Both the position numbers and the translations under genes were made by a program. The notes under the pieces are model-generated. The model saw nothing but the letters and a program-made list of their open reading frames with translations. It was not told the origin of the DNA and searched no databases. Shown here in pieces: positions 1,619-37,966 of a stretch of 41,628 nt of DNA; position 1 is the stretch's first letter; every line of letters starts with the position of its first letter. The stretch is from positions 1 to 41,628 of the IMG/VR virus record IMGVR_UViG_3300044940_000694. One strand, 5' to 3'. Origin of the DNA: a virus.

Positions 1619-2040
1619 TTCGCCACCTTCTTTCCTCGACCCAGCTTCTTCTCTCGTTCAGACGCGAGCGTCTCCAACGCGGCCATCTCCGCGGGACGCA
1701 GCTTCAACAACCGCAGGAACTGCCGCGCCTTCGTGACGATCGCGCGCAGGATGGGCACGGAATCGACGTCGCGAATCGACGCGGCGAAGTGCGGGTACTC
1801 GGAGCGCGGCCGCGGCTCGACCTTCGCCGTCGGCGCGATCGTGCGCACGAGCTCGTGCGCGCGCGGTGCATCGGTGCCGCTCGCGCGGATGTGCACGACT
1901 TCGCCCGGCCCGAGCGCGCCCGAGAGGCACTGCGCGGCGAGCTCGCGCAGCAGGGCCGCGGCGCTCTCGCCGTCCGCGCAGAACACGTCCACGTCGAGCG
2001 TCTCGGGCTGAACCTTGCGCGCTGTCGGTCGACTATTCAT
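1615..2040 (-). CDS. Hypothetical protein, early leftward operon
   Basis: A 141-aa soluble protein with a mixed alpha/beta first half ([24 protein letters not shown]) and a basic tail ending LGRGKKVAK, which suggests nucleic-acid contact. No domain is recognised. It overlaps the upstream LexA-like gene by 8 bases and the downstream small gene by 4, so it is almost certainly co-translated in the integrase operon. Confidence 0.75.
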
Positions 2041-2410
2041 CGCGCATCGCCTTTCGTGCGGCGATCCGCGCTTCGACCTTCGCCAGCTCGGCGCGGTGGT
2101 GCTTGGCCAACGTCTCGTCGCTCATCCCGTGGCAGAGCGCGATCCCGCGGGACTTCGTCACGTCGCGGCGCACGTAGCCTTTCCGCTCGAGCGCGATGAG
2201 GTGATCGTTGACGCCGTTGGTGCTGGCGATGCTGAACGCAACGCCGATCTCTCGCAGCGTCGGCGGGTAGCCGTGCGTCGCGATGAAGCCCTCAATGAAC
2301 GTCAGCACCTCGCGCTGGCGCACCGTGAGCGCTTCACGCGCGGCGGGGCGCTCGGCCGCGGTGGCGTGACACATCGCCGCGCGCTCGCGCTCCGAAAGTT
2401 CGTGCGTCAT
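2033..2410 (-). CDS. LexA-type DNA-binding protein without protease domain
   Basis: Residues 29-92 match the LexA N-terminal winged helix: [29 protein letters not shown], a recognition helix with [18 protein letters not shown], then [12 protein letters not shown]. Full LexA has a C-terminal S24 autoprotease of about 120 residues with a Ser/Lys dyad. This 125-aa protein ends soon after the winged helix, so RecA-stimulated self-cleavage is not expected. A likely role is a regulator of phage or host SOS-type promoters. The remaining C-terminus is a charged helix ([18 protein letters not shown]). ATG 2410 overlaps the stop of the 46-aa gene upstream (ATGA). Confidence 0.82.
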
Positions 2411-2547: not shown

Positions 2548-3056
2548 CTTGCCTCCATCGAATCCAGGTCATCCGCCGCCCCGTTCGCCACCCGCGCAGC
2601 GGCAGTCACTTCGCGCGCGAGCTCGTCGATCGTTGGGTGCTGCCCCTCGCCCTCGCCCGGCTCGCAGGCGGTCAGCGTCAGCGCCAGTCCGCCCACCTGC
2701 CGCGCATCGATGCGCGCGAGCACAACGTGGGCGTGCGCGAAGACGACGAGCTTGGTGAGCAGCGCGAAATGGAACGTCCCGAGGTCGATCCGATGCGCTG
2801 CGCCGAGCGGCAGCCGCACAACCGATCCCGACCAGTCCACTCGGTGCAGCGCCGTGCGATCGGGCAGGTGCTCGAACCCGTCGAACAGGTCGTCGATGAG
2901 CACCGCGCAGCGCGCCGCTTCGATCGACACGACCCACGTCGGCCGCTCTGCGAGGTCGCCCACCCACGGGCGCTCGTCGCCGATCTGCAGCAGCCGGTCG
3001 CGCATCGCGATGACACGCGCGCGGCAGTGCTCAGGGATGAACGTCCCGTCGTTCAT
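2544..3056 (-). CDS. Hypothetical protein, early leftward operon
   Basis: A 170-aa acidic soluble protein (MNDGTFIPEHCRARVIAMRD...). It has alternating beta-like segments in the middle (SVVRLPLGAAHRIDLGTFHFALLTKLVVFAHAHVVLARID has hydrophobic alternation) and an Ala-rich end. No motif is recognised. The start at 3056 is set by an ATGA overlap with the stop of the sigma-like gene, and the stop overlaps the next ATG the same way. An in-frame extension upstream to 3401 lies antisense-free but entirely within the sigma-like gene and is rejected. Confidence 0.75.
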   Translation of the reverse strand: MNDGTFIPEHCRARVIAMRDRLLQIGDERPWVGDLAERPTWVVSIEAARCAVLIDDLFDGFEHLPDRTALHRVDWSGSVVRLPLGAAHRIDLGTFHFALLTKLVVFAHAHVVLARIDARQVGGLALTLTACEPGEGEGQHPTIDELAREVTAAARVANGAADDLDSMEAR

Positions 3057-3637
3057 CGCTGCCCCAGCTGCCGGTAGTACGTAACCGGAATGTGCTGTTT
3101 CGACTTCGCGTACGCGTTCGGCGCGTCCGAGGGTTCGTCGAGGAAGTCCTGCAGCGCGGCGAGCTCGTTGAGTGCCTTGAGCCTCGCGAGCCCCTTCGCC
3201 TCGAGCTGACGAATTCGCTCGCGCGTGAGGTTCATGAGGACCCCCACCTCTTCGAGCGTGACGCCGCCGCGGTCTGCGATGTCGAGCGCGCAGGACTCGG
3301 GCAGGTCCCACACCTCGAGGTCCGGGAAGTTCAGCTTGATCGCGCCGGTGCGCTCCGAGACGTCCAAGAGCAAGTGGTACTTGCAGGAGACGAAGGGGCA
3401 TGGACGCGCGGCAAACTCGCCCTGGGCGCAGTCTGCGCGCGTCTTCGGCTTCGGGTAGCCCGTCTCTGGGTAGGCTTGCTTGCCCCGCTCGAGCTCACGC
3501 TTCGACAGCCGCTTGATGGAGATCGTGCGGGCGCGAACACGCGCGTGCGGCCCCTCTTTGTCCAGTCGCTCTTCGGATTCATCGACCACCTCGTCGAGCG
3601 AGTCGATTGGCGCGCATCGCCCGTTGTCCCTATCCAT
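3053..3637 (-). CDS. Sigma-70 region 4-like protein with four cysteines
   Basis: A 194-aa protein whose residues 126-154 (VTLEEVGVLMNLTRERIRQLEAKGL) are a clear sigma-70 region 4.2 helix-turn-helix, the part that reads the -35 element. Regions 2 and 3 are absent, so it cannot replace a sigma factor alone. Upstream lies a cysteine-bearing segment, C70, C80, C85 and C116 (RPCPFVSCKYHLLLDV), that could hold a metal or Fe-S cluster. From memory, similar proteins are widespread in myxobacteria; this is not checked. The start at 3637 has a strong Shine-Dalgarno (AGGAGAAGAAG). Likely role: regulator of phage or host transcription acting at RNA polymerase. Confidence 0.85.
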   Translation of the reverse strand: MDRDNGRCAPIDSLDEVVDESEERLDKEGPHARVRARTISIKRLSKRELERGKQAYPETGYPKPKTRADCAQGEFAARPCPFVSCKYHLLLDVSERTGAIKLNFPDLEVWDLPESCALDIADRGGVTLEEVGVLMNLTRERIRQLEAKGLARLKALNELAALQDFLDEPSDAPNAYAKSKQHIPVTYYRQLGQR

Positions 3638-3673: not shown

Positions 3674-3868
3674 TTACGCGGCCAAAGCGGGCGCGACGCC
3701 ACGCTCGCGCGGCAGTGCGCTGGCGTAGAGACGGGCCTCGGAATCAGTGAGCGCGTCGAGCGCGTCGGACCAGGCGCGGAATGACTCGCGCGTCGGACGC
3801 GAGAGCCACGCGTCGCGCAGGTCGAGCACGAACCGGACGTGCGTCGGGAGCGAGCGGCGCGAGGTCAT
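3674..3868 (-). CDS. Small hypothetical protein
   Basis: A 64-aa basic, helical protein (MTSRRSLPTHVRFVLDLRDAW...). ATG 3868 overlaps the stop of the 142-aa gene as ATGA, which decides the start over one at 3883. It ends with an Ala-rich tail. No domain is recognised. It is followed by a 36-base gap with the strong ribosome-binding site of the sigma-like gene. Confidence 0.65.
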   Translation of the reverse strand: MTSRRSLPTHVRFVLDLRDAWLSRPTRESFRAWSDALDALTDSEARLYASALPRERGVAPALAA

Positions 3869-4293
3869 CGCTCGTCCACCCACTTGGCGAGGGATTCCAG
3901 CGCCAGCTCCGAGAGATCACGACGACCTTGGCCGACGACGAGCTCGTTTCCGTCAGACCATTCACGGGATTTCTCGTGCATCACCGCGCGCAGCCGCTCG
4001 ACTTGTGCGAGCGAGACGGTCAGCGCCGAGATCGTCTCCAGCTCAGTCGGGCAGCTCAGCGAGAGGACCTTCAACGAGTCGACCAGCTCCGCGAGCGCCT
4101 CGTTGAACGCCTCGGCCGGGACGTACGCGTCGAGCTCGCTGTCGTTCGCCGCGTCGAGCGAGTCGAAGTGCGCCTTGCAGGCGGCGCAGACGATGACGCC
4201 GCGGCGTTCGGTGCGCTTGTCGATCGGCGCGCCGTGGTCGCCGTAGGCGCAGAAGAAACGTTTGGAATGACGAGCAGTGGTCGAGCGGGACAT
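3865..4293 (-). CDS. Zinc-ribbon-like protein, first gene of leftward operon
   Basis: A 142-aa acidic protein with an N-terminal CxxC-type element (C15 region FFCAYGDHG, then VIVCAACKAHFDSLD) resembling half of a treble-clef or zinc ribbon, followed by long helices (EAFNEALAELVDSLKVL, LAQVERLRAVMHEKSREW). The function is unknown. It is the first gene of the leftward operon, with GGAGGT 5 bases before ATG 4293 and the operator-bearing promoter just upstream, so it should be expressed when the repressor is lifted. Confidence 0.75.
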   Translation of the reverse strand: MSRSTTARHSKRFFCAYGDHGAPIDKRTERRGVIVCAACKAHFDSLDAANDSELDAYVPAEAFNEALAELVDSLKVLSLSCPTELETISALTVSLAQVERLRAVMHEKSREWSDGNELVVGQGRRDLSELALESLAKWVDER

Positions 4294-4328
4294 CGAAACC
4301 TCCGCTCCCGAAGAGATCCGGGGCAGAG

Positions 4329-4348
4329 GTGAAGTAAACTTATTTCAC
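4329..4348. promoter_or_regulatory. Palindromic operator O1
   Basis: GTGAAGTAAACTTATTTCAC is a 20-bp imperfect palindrome (16 of 20 positions symmetric) with half-site GTGAARTAA. The same half-site recurs at 5852-5860 and 5898-5906. It covers the -10 region of PL. A related, weaker AT-rich sequence lies at 4363-4380 (minus strand GAGTAAGTAAATTTAGTC). It is the probable binding site of the HTH repressor encoded at 5235-5876. Confidence 0.65.
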
Positions 4349-4359
4349 TATCTCGTCAA
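4331..4359 (-). promoter_or_regulatory. Leftward early promoter PL with operator in the spacer
   Basis: On the minus strand: TTGACG (-35, 4354-4359), a 17-base spacer, then TACTTC (-10, 4331-4336). The spacer holds GTGAAATAA (4340-4348) starting 5 bases after the -35 element, exactly where the rightward promoter carries GTGAAGTAA. Transcription would start about 30 bases before ATG 4293. The layout predicts repression by a protein bound over the spacer. Confidence 0.65.
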
Positions 4360-4373
4360 CCGACTAAATTTAC

Positions 4374-5063
4374 TTACTCGTCCCAGCCTCCCTCAGGGCC
4401 GATAAACACGTGGAATCCCTGACGATCGGTGAGCCTGCGCCGAAACACCCCCTCGCTCCGCGCGGGCGGGCGGCGCGCCTCTCGGGCCCAGCGGAACAGC
4501 TCCCAGTCGGTGAGCGGGATCTGCGGTCCCTTGCGCACGACGAGCTGCGTTCGCTCGAACAGCGGCACTTCGCAGAGCAGCGCGACGGGGTAGTCCATCA
4601 CCTCGGCGAGACGCAGCGCGATCGTGTACTCGCTCACGACGAACTGCGTCGCGAGGCGCGGGAGATCGAGTCCCCACGCGAACACCGCTGCGCGCAGCGC
4701 GGGACGCGGGACGATCGCCGCGGCCGTGATGCGGTTGCACAGCCGCTCGATGTCTTGCTCGACGTAGGGGTTGGGCCTGTCCACGAGCCGGATCTCCGCG
4801 GCCTCGTGGCAGGGCCACCAATTCGCCGCGACGGGCTGGTCCGCGAGGCGGAGCGCGAGCTGAATGAGCCACGTCCCGTCGCTGCGGCGGAGGCACTGTG
4901 CGGGGCGACCGAGCTCGTCGAGCTCGCGCGTCCACTGGACGTTCTGTCGGCCCACGATGCGCTGCGCGAGCGTGATCCCGGTGACGGGGGTCACCAGGTC
5001 TACGCCGGCTGCGCGCCGCAAGCTGAGGGCCTCTCCCTCGACCTCGTCCTGCTCCCAGGCCAT
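4374..5063 (-). CDS. ImmA/IrrE-like protein with degenerate metal motif
   Basis: A 229-aa protein that aligns by eye with the ImmA/IrrE metallopeptidase core. A HE pair sits at residues 86-87 (WWPCHEAAEI), followed by the typical acidic and small-residue helix IERLCNRITAAAIVPRPAL (105-123) and a final HTH-like segment LPRLATQFVVSEYTIALRLAEV. ImmA proteins cleave the phage or ICE repressor on induction. The canonical HExxH is here H-E-A-A-E, so one zinc ligand is missing and peptidase activity is doubtful. It lies downstream of the repressor gene on the same strand, the usual immR-immA type pairing. ATG 5063 matches the family's usual N-terminus; a GTG at 5147 would add 28 residues and lacks a clear ribosome-binding site. 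Confidence 0.65.
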   Translation of the reverse strand: MAWEQDEVEGEALSLRRAAGVDLVTPVTGITLAQRIVGRQNVQWTRELDELGRPAQCLRRSDGTWLIQLALRLADQPVAANWWPCHEAAEIRLVDRPNPYVEQDIERLCNRITAAAIVPRPALRAAVFAWGLDLPRLATQFVVSEYTIALRLAEVMDYPVALLCEVPLFERTQLVVRKGPQIPLTDWELFRWAREARRPPARSEGVFRRRLTDRQGFHVFIGPEGGWDE

Positions 5064-5234
5064 TGACGCGGTGATCCTCTCGCGCTCACGCACAGGGTCA
5101 ACGCTTGGAGCCACTTTGCAGCAGCCTGAGAATGGCTGGAGCTCCACTCGAAACCAGCGTTTCTCGCGGGATCATCGCGAGCAACGGTCGGACATTCTAT
5201 GTCCAGCCAGAGGGTGTTCAGTGGGTTGACGAAA

Positions 5235-5876
5235 CTAGCGCGGTGCCCTCTTCGGCCGCTTCGCGCGGTGCGCTTCGATCTTGGCGTTCACGTCGTCGGA
5301 CAGGGCTTCGCTCTTGGCGCGCGCGGCCGCGACGGCCAGCGGGTTCTCGCGCTCGAGCCGGACAGCTTCCTGCTCGTTCAGCACCGTGCGGATCCACCAC
5401 ATCTTGGGCATGTCCGTTGGCGACGAGAGCGCGCGCGACTCGACGCGGGTGACGACTTCGGGGTCGAGATCGGCGCGCAACAGTGCGAGCACGGCGGCGC
5501 GGTTGGGGTAGCGCTCGGGGCGCTCGACGCGCGTCTCTTCGAACTTCGCGGCGAACTCTCGCTCGGCGTTCTCCAGCACTTGATCGAGCGTCATGCCAAA
5601 CAACCTCCCGACGCCCTTGGCGACCTTGATGCCGATGGAGCTGCGTTCCTTGAGGATCAGCCCGATCGCAGACTTGCTCACGCCTGACGCCTTGGCGAGC
5701 CCAGCCATGTTGCGCTGTGCGTCCGCCGGCGCCGTTCCCTCGCCCCGAAGCCACCTCGCCATGAGGTCACGGACGTAGGAGACAGCCGCTGGCGAGAGTT
5801 CAGTGTTTCCGTGCGTGCTCACGAGACGCAGGAAGCTTGCACGAGAGTCATGTGAAGTAATTCGACTAGTCGGCAT
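5235..5876 (-). CDS. Phage repressor, HTH type (CI-like)
   Basis: A 213-aa protein with a Cro/C1-type helix-turn-helix at about residues 55-105 (NMAGLAKASGVSKSAIGLIL, then IGIKVAKGVGRLFGMTLDQV) and an Arg-rich C-terminus ending KRPKRAPR. No LexA-type S24 protease signature (Ser/Lys dyad region) is evident, which fits induction through an ImmA-like partner. The gene faces the Cro-like gene across a 46-base control region. ATG 5876 was chosen because it places the HTH normally and has AAGGATG upstream; longer starts would run through the promoter and into the cro gene. A GTGAAGTAA half-site lies in its first codons (5852-5860), suggesting autoregulation. Confidence 0.82.
   Translation of the reverse strand: MPTSRITSHDSRASFLRLVSTHGNTELSPAAVSYVRDLMARWLRGEGTAPADAQRNMAGLAKASGVSKSAIGLILKERSSIGIKVAKGVGRLFGMTLDQVLENAEREFAAKFEETRVERPERYPNRAAVLALLRADLDPEVVTRVESRALSSPTDMPKMWWIRTVLNEQEAVRLERENPLAVAAARAKSEALSDDVNAKIEAHRAKRPKRAPR
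5852..5872. promoter_or_regulatory. Operator half-site O3 inside repressor start
   Basis: GTGAAGTAA at 5852-5860 repeats the operator half-site, followed by the small palindrome CGACTAGTCG (5863-5872). It overlaps the first codons of the repressor gene, a usual place for an autoregulatory site. The right half of the operator is poorly matched. Confidence 0.45.
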
Positions 5877-5886
5877 AGGCGCATCC

Positions 5887-5915
5887 TTGACGGAGGAGTG
5901 AAGTAATTTTACTCT
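5887..5915 (+). promoter_or_regulatory. Rightward early promoter PR with operator O4
   Basis: TTGACG (5887-5892), a 17-base spacer and TACTCT (5910-5915). The spacer contains GTGAAGTAA (5898-5906) at the same offset as in PL, and an inverted partial copy follows (TTTTACTC). The start point expected about 7 bases after the -10 element falls on or next to the GTG start codon at 5923, so the cro message may be leaderless. On the minus strand the same stretch offers TAAAAT (5906-5911) as a -10 element for the repressor. Confidence 0.65.
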
Positions 5916-5922
5916 TCCACCC

Positions 5923-6210
5923 GTGATCCAGATCGACACCATCCCGACAGCGCCGCCAAACGCGATGCTGCTCAAGAGTTGGCTCAATGAGCTGGGGCTG
6001 TCCGCCGAGGACTTCGCCGAGAAGGTCGGCGTCACCAAGCCCACGATCTACGACTGGTGCCGCGGGAGCAGCCGCCCGACGAAGGCGCTGCACCAGCAGA
6101 AGATGGCGCTGCTCAGCGGCGGCCAGATCCAGCCGATCGGCTGGCAGACCGACGAAGAGCGCGCCGAGCTCGCCGCGCTGAAGCCGCTGCGTCCGGGAAC
6201 GGAGGGCTGA
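5923..6210 (+). CDS. Cro-like HTH regulator
   Basis: A 95-aa protein with a helix-turn-helix at about residues 24-55 (LGLSAEDFAEKVGVTKPTIYDW, then CRGSSRPTKAL), divergent from the repressor gene. This is the Cro position of a lambda-like switch. The GTG start has no Shine-Dalgarno upstream (TCTTCCACCC); with PR this predicts leaderless translation. A likely role is to counter the repressor at the shared operators and open the early genes. Confidence 0.8.
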   Translation: MIQIDTIPTAPPNAMLLKSWLNELGLSAEDFAEKVGVTKPTIYDWCRGSSRPTKALHQQKMALLSGGQIQPIGWQTDEERAELAALKPLRPGTEG

Positions 6211-6213
6211 GCG

Positions 6214-6510
6214 ATGCGACGTCCCGCGTCCACGCGCCCTGAGCGCCCCGTTCTGCTGCGCGCCGCCAACGGCGCGACGCTCCTCGCCCACGGCCTCGTA
6301 TACGCAGGTATCGCCGCGCTCGCCCTCACAGCGGCGCCGCTCGGAATCCTGCTGCTCGCGACGTCCGCCGTCATCGGCGGCTCCGCGGTGCTCATGGCGG
6401 GCGATGCCCAAGCCGAGCGAGAGCTCGACGAACCGACGTCTGTGCACGGAGGTGATGACCACGGGACGAGCGTGAGCCGTCCCGCGTCGCGATGCGAGGT
6501 GCGCCCGTGA
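6214..6510 (+). CDS. Small membrane protein
   Basis: A 98-aa protein with one or two hydrophobic helices at about residues 22-63 (TLLAHGLVYAGIAALALTA, then LGILLLATSAVIGGSAVL) and a polar C-terminal tail. It starts 3 bases after the Cro-like gene and overlaps the next gene. No family is recognised. Its place in the early operon is compatible with a superinfection-exclusion or host-takeover factor, but this is only positional. Confidence 0.65.
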   Translation: MRRPASTRPERPVLLRAANGATLLAHGLVYAGIAALALTAAPLGILLLATSAVIGGSAVLMAGDAQAERELDEPTSVHGGDDHGTSVSRPASRCEVRP

Positions 6511-7028
6511 CCGTCGCCGACACCCAAACCGCCGCGCCCTCGGACAAGGAGCTGAGCGCGCGCCGGATCGCTGGGCGCGCCGCGTTCGCCGCACTGCTGC
6601 GCCGTCACCTCGACTTGAGTCTCTCGCGCGGCTTCTCGTTCGTCTCCTCGTGGGCGAGCGTGCTCGGCGTCGGCGAGGGCAAGATGCGCCGCTGGGCGCA
6701 GCCCGACCACATCCGCAGCGCGATCGCTGCGGGTGATCTCCACGCGCTCCCAGCGGCCGAGCTCGCCGACCTGCTGCGCTTCTGGCTTGCAGACGTCGAG
6801 GCGAGCATCGAGCCCGCGGAGCCCGCGACGGACCCACGCCTGCTCGTGGTCGTCTTCGCTGAGGCGATCGGAGATCTCGCGAAGAGCGCACGTAAGGCGA
6901 TGGTCGACCGTCGCGTCACCCACCCCGAGTGGGCCGAGCTCGAGGCGAAGTTCGCGGCGATCGAGCGCGACGCGCGCGTAGCGCGGCTCGCCTGCGAAGC
7001 GGCCCGCAAGAGCGGGGGAGCCCGATGA
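6507..7028 (+). CDS. Hypothetical regulator-like protein, early operon
   Basis: A 173-aa helical protein. The segment VSSWASVLGVGEGKMRRWAQ resembles a helix-turn-helix, and AALLRRHLDLSLSR precedes it; the second half is long charged helices (HPEWAELEAKFAAIERDARVARLACEAARK). The layout recalls phage CII-type regulators, but no confident match is made. GTG 6507 overlaps the upstream stop as GTGA, with GAGGTG as the ribosome-binding site; an in-frame ATG at 6492 would overlap further. Confidence 0.65.
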   Translation: MTVADTQTAAPSDKELSARRIAGRAAFAALLRRHLDLSLSRGFSFVSSWASVLGVGEGKMRRWAQPDHIRSAIAAGDLHALPAAELADLLRFWLADVEASIEPAEPATDPRLLVVVFAEAIGDLAKSARKAMVDRRVTHPEWAELEAKFAAIERDARVARLACEAARKSGGAR

Positions 7029-16500: not shown

Positions 16501-16529
16501 TTGACGAGCGATTGGGGACAAGATACGCC
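16501..16529 (+). promoter_or_regulatory. Possible promoter, TTGACG-N17-TACGCC
   Basis: TTGACG (16501-16506) after a run of T, a 17-base spacer and TACGCC (16524-16529), in a 68-base gap before ATG 16555. The -35, spacing and TAC start of the -10 element copy PL and PR, but there is no GTGAARTAA in the spacer, so it may serve genes expressed later and outside repressor control. The -10 element is poor. Confidence 0.35.
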
Positions 16530-16554
16530 TTTCAGCGGGGAGAGGTGCGCGCAG

Positions 16555-16779
16555 ATGGCGACAGTCGTTTCAGCACCGCAGTTCGCGGCCATGCTCTCGG
16601 ACGCGGGTGAGCCGACCGATCGCCGAACGGCGACGCGCTGGTTCAACCTGTGGCGAGCGCGCGGCGTCCCTCACGTTCGCGAGGTCGTAGGCGGGCGCGG
16701 CGGACGCGGCGGCGTCTCGCTCGCGCTTACGCTCGAAGGGCTCGCCGCCTACTGCCGCGGGGAGCTGTCGATTCGCTGA
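16555..16779 (+). CDS. Small HTH-like protein
   Basis: A 74-aa protein (MATVVSAPQFAAMLSDAG...). APQFAAMLSDAGEPTDRRTATRWFNLWRARGVP resembles the helix-turn-helix of small phage regulators or excisionases, followed by a Gly/Arg loop and a closing helix. GAGAGGTG precedes ATG 16555, a sequence much like the end of the 82-bp leaders. Specific role unknown. Confidence 0.6.
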   Translation: MATVVSAPQFAAMLSDAGEPTDRRTATRWFNLWRARGVPHVREVVGGRGGRGGVSLALTLEGLAAYCRGELSIR

Positions 16780-37611: not shown

Positions 37612-37642
37612 ACAACGTATCCGGTTTTGACAACGTATCCGG
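37612..37642 (+). repeat. Tandem 13-bp direct repeat ACAACGTATCCGG
   Basis: ACAACGTATCCGG at 37612-37624 and again at 37630-37642, an 18-base period. The second copy overlaps the -35 element and spacer of the promoter at 37627-37655, so the pair is a candidate binding site for a regulator such as the adjacent Fis-type protein. Confidence 0.85.
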
Positions 37643-37655
37643 GCAAGAGTAGTTT
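37627..37655 (+). promoter_or_regulatory. Promoter TTGACA-N17-TAGTTT
   Basis: A consensus -35 TTGACA (37627-37632), a 17-base spacer and TAGTTT (37650-37655). The palindrome CGGGCAA-N8-TTGCCCG (from 37640 to 37661) spans the -10 region. The start point would fall almost at ATG 37664, so the message would be leaderless or nearly so. Confidence 0.6.
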
Positions 37656-37663
37656 TGCCCGCA

Positions 37664-37966
37664 ATGAATCCTGTCGCGCGCTCGCACCGTTGCGTCCAAC
37701 TCGGTAACCACCTCGACCACACGCTTGTGTGGAGGCTGACGCCGCGCCTCCTCGAAGAGGGCTGGGCGACGCTCGCGGTGATCCACGACGACGAGTTGTC
37801 CCGCGAGGCGGGCGGCGCGTTCTCCGTGGAGAACGTCGAGGCAGCGTATCCGCGCTTCGCGGCGTGGGGTCAGAGGGCTCGCGCTCGGGGTGAGCGCATC
37901 GCCGTGATTCTGCGCGGCAATACCGTTCCGCCTCGGCTCGTCAGGGTCGCGGCGTGGAGGTGGTGA
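37664..37966 (+). CDS. Hypothetical protein after regulated promoter
   Basis: A 100-aa protein (MNPVARSHRCVQLGNHLDHT...) with an alpha/beta feel (LLEEGWATLAVIHDDELS, ERIAVILRGNTVPP). No motif is recognised. There is no Shine-Dalgarno before ATG 37664, which fits the leaderless prediction from the promoter; an in-frame TTG at 37655 is less likely. The stop overlaps the next gene's GTG (GTGA). Confidence 0.55.
   Translation: MNPVARSHRCVQLGNHLDHTLVWRLTPRLLEEGWATLAVIHDDELSREAGGAFSVENVEAAYPRFAAWGQRARARGERIAVILRGNTVPPRLVRVAAWRW

Follow-up and report, generated by a model that had tools for sequence, protein, structure and literature searches.

The immunity region of phage lambda runs in the order OL/PL, rex, cI, OR/PR and cro. 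The handling of leaderless mRNA by host ribosomes varies with the host and with stress. In the telomere phage PY54, both the cro and the cI messages were mapped by RACE and found to be leaderless (PMC4488713), and in Mycobacterium tuberculosis, where the usual -10 element is TANNNT, transcripts start at the start codon in 26% of the genes with a primary transcription start site (PMC3898074), so that a leaderless switch message would not be new in kind. The ImmR repressor of ICEBs1, a target of cleavage by ImmA, binds to several sites at each of its two promoters (PMC8960796). Here we describe a locus in a 41,628-base virus record with 68% G+C, the whole of which is referred to as the window, that is probably an immunity region of lambda-like design from a temperate tailed phage, in which PL and PR are covered by operators and controlled by a repressor. 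The type of switch is already known, whereas the phage is previously undescribed.

The window carries a tyrosine integrase gene at its left end (PF00589, E = 1e-35), structural genes for terminase, portal, head protease and major head protein, and replication genes (DnaB-like, replication-initiation and helicase-methylase), and this combination makes it most likely that the window is a temperate tailed phage; no close relative of it was found in the collections scanned. The integrase closes the run of minus-strand genes behind a leftward promoter, PL, which is followed on its right by a degenerate M78-like ORF, the gene for an XRE-type repressor and a rightward promoter, PR, leading into cro-like, CII-like and helicase genes. 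As in regions of the lambda type, the left operon contains the integrase, the right operon contains the CII-like and replication genes, and the repressor gene lies between divergent early promoters with a common operator. The reading of the earlier note, a divergent immunity switch with two outward promoters and one type of operator, is supported by gene order, by the rarity of the motifs and by their register.

The candidate prophage repressor is a protein of 213 residues encoded on the minus strand (5235..5876), with an XRE-type HTH at residues ~30-98. Its HTH_3 match (E = 0.0058) falls below the Pfam cut-off, PHROG transcriptional regulators match at E = 0.003-0.005, and no S24 match was found at E values up to 1, which sets it apart from self-cleaving repressors of the CI type. 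A Shine-Dalgarno (SD) sequence, AAGGA (5888-5884), lies 7 nt before ATG5876. The first 19 codons have an atypical GC3 of 0.42 and look non-coding, so the start is uncertain; these codons may be constrained by an operator (OR2, below), or the true start may lie further in at GTG5819, where no SD was seen. On the same strand, a 229-residue ORF with strong coding bias (4374..5063) gives an M78-like (ImmA/IrrE-type) match that is also below the cut-off (PF06114, E = 0.024). It has HEAAE in place of the HExxH of metallopeptidases, and its product is a possible ImmA-like antirepressor. The 170-bp gap between the two genes contains two perfect inverted repeats at 5163-5204 (CTCGCGGGATCATCGCGAG and GGACATTCTATGTCC), both present as single copies. 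On the other side of the repressor, the cro-like gene (5923..6210, plus strand), a candidate for leaderless translation, encodes 95 residues from a GTG start with an HTH_3 match at E = 2e-9. It is followed in the PR operon by a weakly matched CII-like regulator (6492..7028, plus strand; phrog_101, E = 7e-4), which probably starts at GTG6507 behind the SD GAGGTG. The first gene behind PL (3865..4293, minus strand) has the SD GGAGGT 4 nt before its ATG and encodes a 142-residue protein with CxxC pairs and no significant family match. AlphaFold single-sequence models (pLDDT 37 and 54) were too poor for a structure search.

Two further DNA-binding proteins are encoded on the PL side. The gene at 2033-2410 (minus strand) specifies a stand-alone phage LexA-like domain: the residues behind the LexA DNA-binding domain (PF01726, E = 2e-24) are too few for an S24 peptidase. 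In GIL01, a LexA homologue encoded by the phage activates lytic genes (PMC6182141). The gene at 3053-3637 (minus strand) specifies a 194-residue protein with a sigma-70 region 4 HTH (PF04545, E = 1.5e-8), the other sigma regions being unmatched.

PR (5887..5915, plus strand) consists of TTGACG (5887-5892), a 17-bp spacer and TACTCT, and PL (4331..4359, minus strand), the activity of which we infer, consists of TTGACG (4359-4354), 17 bp and TACTTC (4336-4331), with a transcript start expected near 4324. In each promoter the hexamer TTGACG is followed by 5 bases, the nonamer GTGAARTAA (5898-5906 on the plus strand; 4348-4340 on the minus strand), 3 bases and TACT (5910-5913; 4336-4333). All the elements of the two promoters, described earlier as built alike on opposite strands, are present, as is the further nonamer that had been placed in the repressor start. 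GTGAARTAA matches exactly four times in the window (4329+, 4340-, 5852+ and 5898+) against an expectation of 0.06; none of 100 shuffles reached four copies. The minus strand of PL and the plus strand of PR are identical, in register, at 22 of 31 positions. Under a stricter null, with shuffling confined to the two AT-richer regulatory stretches (48-52% G+C), this identity was reached in 0 of 500 cases (mean 16.8, maximum 21), and a 9-mer family as large as that of the nonamer arose in 1 of 1000. The pattern TTGACG-N17-TA[CT] occurs three times in the 41.6 kb (PR, PL and 16501), compared with 0.13 expected from mononucleotide shuffling. The PR -10 element, TACTCT, fits TANNNT, whereas that of PL, TACTTC, has no T at position 6 and is a poor -10; a generic sigma-70 scan reported none of the promoters of the region. 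The third promoter-like site, TTGACG-N17-TAC without an operator (16501-16779, plus strand), precedes a 74-residue ORF upstream of the terminase genes and is a possible late promoter.

Since TACTTCAC is the reverse complement of GTGAAGTA, the nonamer, the 3 bases and TACT form a single inverted repeat with the 20-bp consensus GTGAARTAA-NN-TTAYTTCAC. This is one operator and not two elements, and the TACT of the -10 comes from its right arm. OL1 (4329..4348), the 20-bp inverted repeat GTGAAGTAAACTTATTTCAC, covers the spacer and -10 of PL and fits the consensus with no mismatch, one of its nine arm pairs being non-complementary. OR1 (5898..5917), an inverted repeat of the same type, deviates at 3 positions that all lie in the right arm; it is these mismatches that give TACTCT there, and with it the fit to TANNNT. 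Within the 41.6 kb, GTAANNTTA[CT] is found at OL1 and OR1 only. Both promoters are thus composed of TTGACG, 5 bp and a 20-bp operator spanning spacer and -10. The 20-bp palindrome that the earlier note had called O1 does exist, but it is not a separate element: it is PL's own operator, identical with the nonamer + 3 + TACT of that promoter and so counted twice. Nor is it a perfect palindrome, which was rejected for 4329-4348 on account of the one mismatched pair. The fixed register predicted for the repressor site would come from one palindrome spanning spacer and -10 rather than from a half-site and a separate -10.

With up to 2 mismatches allowed, the 41.6 kb contain three copies of a degenerate core, AARTAANNTTAYTT, at OL1, at OR1 and at 4362-4375. 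The last of these, GACTAAATTTACTT, is the core of a degenerate and probable second left operator, OL2 (4359..4378), which lies directly upstream of the PL -35 and overlaps the stop of the M78-like ORF. The putative OR2 (5852..5871) comprises the half-site GTGAAGTAA (5852-5860), in repressor codons 6-9, and a degenerate second arm. The window has just two copies of the heptamer CCGACTA, one next to OL2 and the other next to OR2. Inside OR1, on the minus strand, TAAAAT (5911-5906) is a possible -10 of the repressor promoter, PRM, with no matching -35 upstream. As this -35 is missing and a repressor at OR1 would cover the -10, simple autorepression would fit better than activation in the style of lambda. 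OL2, the PRM -10 inside OR1 and the M78-like ORF are additions to the earlier note.

A search for the promoter pattern in related phages, which the note had suggested, returned nothing usable. The full TTGACG...TACT pattern had 0 matches in 2.9 million viral contigs. In searches that reach mainly close relatives, the repressor, Cro-like and M78-like proteins had no detectable relative in viral contigs, and the repressor none among GTDB species genomes, phage records or plasmid records. The matches of the Cro-like protein to phage HTH proteins are confined to the HTH domain. One genome contig matched by the repressor (L010, Aurantimonas) was spurious, the match lying inside an unrelated gene for a transporter binding protein, and one palindrome match, in a phage of 37% GC (L009), lay in a coding gene and was judged to be chance. 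Relatives of the helicase (L003, L004) and of the terminase (L005-L008) have no immunity genes in common with the window, and no relative combining a matching repressor and operator was found. The sigma-region-4 protein of the left operon has 6 relatives in other viral contigs (52-71% identity), and GTGAARTAA is absent from the compared stretches of these phages (n = 6). In one of them, L016, the relative adjoins an integrase, and a promoter at 3314 carries the palindrome GTAACG-N4-CGTTAC between TTGACA and TACTGT, next to a relative of the HTH gene at 37.3-37.6 kb of the window. An identical layout with another operator is as expected of immunity-type switches. In L021 (2153-2480, equal to L004 1-280, minus strand), two small genes, toxin-antitoxin-like by eye, follow the promoter TTGACT-N17-TATATT-CCTTGC-ATG, with the ATG 6 nt after TATATT and a 22-bp palindrome, ATATAAACG-N4-CGTTTATAT, in the spacer; this shows that an apparently leaderless layout with the operator in the spacer recurs in an unrelated operon, and is no evidence of kinship. 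What results is a testable map of the immunity region for a phage whose repressor, Cro-like and M78-like proteins are without detectable relatives in the scanned collections.

GTG5923 is most likely where the cro-like message begins. As had been claimed, TACTCT ends 7 nt before this codon and no SD precedes it, although an SD is present at most genes of the phage. From its opening at 5902, the frame contains no other ATG, GTG or TTG before GTG5923. The 42 bp (14 codons) from 5923 to 5964 have a GC3 of 0.86 and a coding log-odds of +5.3 in the GTG frame, the only plus-strand frame with a positive score; the two others give -10.1 and -2.9. The gene thus combines the features of a leaderless start, namely no SD, a -10 element 6-8 nt before the start codon and coding sequence from that codon on. 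Promoters of the form TTGAC-N16-18-TANNNT occur twice in the window against 0.55 expected, at PR and at 37627, and both end 7-8 nt before SD-less starts. The 37627 promoter, TTGACA-N17-TAGTTT, ends 8 nt before ATG37664, which opens a 100-residue ORF with a coding log-odds of +11 against -25 and -33. Two of two is a small number, yet it lends the leaderless prediction independent support. At this second locus (37612-37966, plus strand), the -35 and spacer are overlapped by a 13-bp direct repeat, ACAACGTATCCGG, with copies at 37612 and 37630. The upstream gene, which extends to 37602, shows a weak HTH match of the Fis type and has a relative in L016. It is conceivable, if rather speculative, that operator, -10 and start codon have been compressed into one unit in this phage lineage and are used for switch genes at GTG5923 (with inverted-repeat operators) and at ATG37664 (with direct-repeat operators, beside the Fis-type HTH gene), making entry into the lytic cycle dependent on leaderless translation. 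The HTH domain of the Cro-like protein begins right after ATG5965, and the TANNNT geometry by itself is not rare, both of which would suit a message with a leader, translated from ATG5965 into 81 residues, and a coincidental distance between -10 and GTG. Such a message is unlikely given the codon bias of 5923-5964, and ATG5965 has no SD in front either. The locus offers, in a phage of high G+C content, a clean candidate leaderless cro message, and if the start at GTG5923 is true, the lytic decision would hang on how the host ribosome handles leaderless mRNA.

In the preferred reading, PL would drive leftward transcription into the integrase-ending operon and PR rightward transcription into the cro-like, CII-like, helicase-methylase and replication genes. 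With an HTH dimer bound to the operator, RNA polymerase would be kept off the two promoters in one and the same register. In the lysogen the 213-residue repressor would occupy the operators. The Cro-like protein may use the same sites and so turn the repressor off, the -10 of which lies in OR1, and OL2 and OR2 would serve as secondary sites, either in cooperative binding or in autorepression. The elements with their register and rarity, the order and families of the genes and the coding from GTG5923 are seen in the sequence; binding, the protein responsible for it, promoter activity and start points are what we infer. The likeness of PL and PR might be put down to chance between two AT-rich intergenic stretches, and the common 9-mer is indeed weak evidence, appearing in 5% of local-composition shuffles (107 of 2000); the shuffles do not, however, reproduce the 31-bp match in register, the four nonamers or a core this rare, and chance is a very improbable explanation. 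The Cro-like protein is as good a candidate for binding the operators as the 213-residue protein. Its HTH match is the stronger (E = 2e-9 against 0.006), and with further DNA-binding proteins encoded behind PL one may ask whether the operators serve mainly the Cro-like protein or another regulator (the LexA-like domain or the sigma-region-4 protein), the 213-residue protein regulating something else. We think this improbable, as the 213-residue gene diverges from cro and has an operator half-site within its initial codons, an arrangement usual for an autoregulated prophage repressor, and canonical LexA boxes, in the forms tried, do not coincide with the operators. The pairing of an XRE-type HTH protein lacking S24 with a downstream ORF of the same strand that weakly matches Peptidase_M78 also suggests an ImmR/ImmA-like module, in which the 213-residue protein would act on both promoters as a repressor of the ICEBs1 ImmR type and be inactivated through M78-like cleavage rather than RecA-stimulated self-cleavage. 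A lambda-like layout would accommodate such a module, the difference being how induction takes place; the sub-threshold match with its altered motif, the 170-bp gap and the absence of a match among solved structures leave it somewhat doubtful.

Of the described systems, the lambda-like switch that we favor shares most with lambda itself: the gene order, outward-facing PL and PR around the repressor, promoters overlapped by operators, a left operon with int, and a right operon with CII-like and replication genes. It departs from lambda in that the repressor has no S24 self-cleavage domain, for which reason it is not classed among the CI proteins of that family, although the region would work like lambda's. 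Where lambda has three, each promoter here has one full and one degenerate operator, an M78-like ORF stands where lambda has rex, and the candidate repressor -10 lies inside OR1, which makes positive autoregulation unlikely; here it is cro, not cI, that is predicted to be leaderless. PY54 immB likewise has a palindromic operator between repressor and cro and a leaderless cro message (PMC4488713), mapped there by RACE and predicted here, but it starts at AUG rather than at a GTG with a predicted 5' end, and its one operator is bound by Cro, whereas the operator here is common to two promoters. With ImmR/ImmA of ICEBs1 the locus shares an XRE-type repressor without S24, an M78-like neighbor and several sites at two promoters (PMC8960796). 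It differs from ICEBs1 in its sub-threshold M78 similarity with an altered motif and in a separate PL 1.5 kb away.
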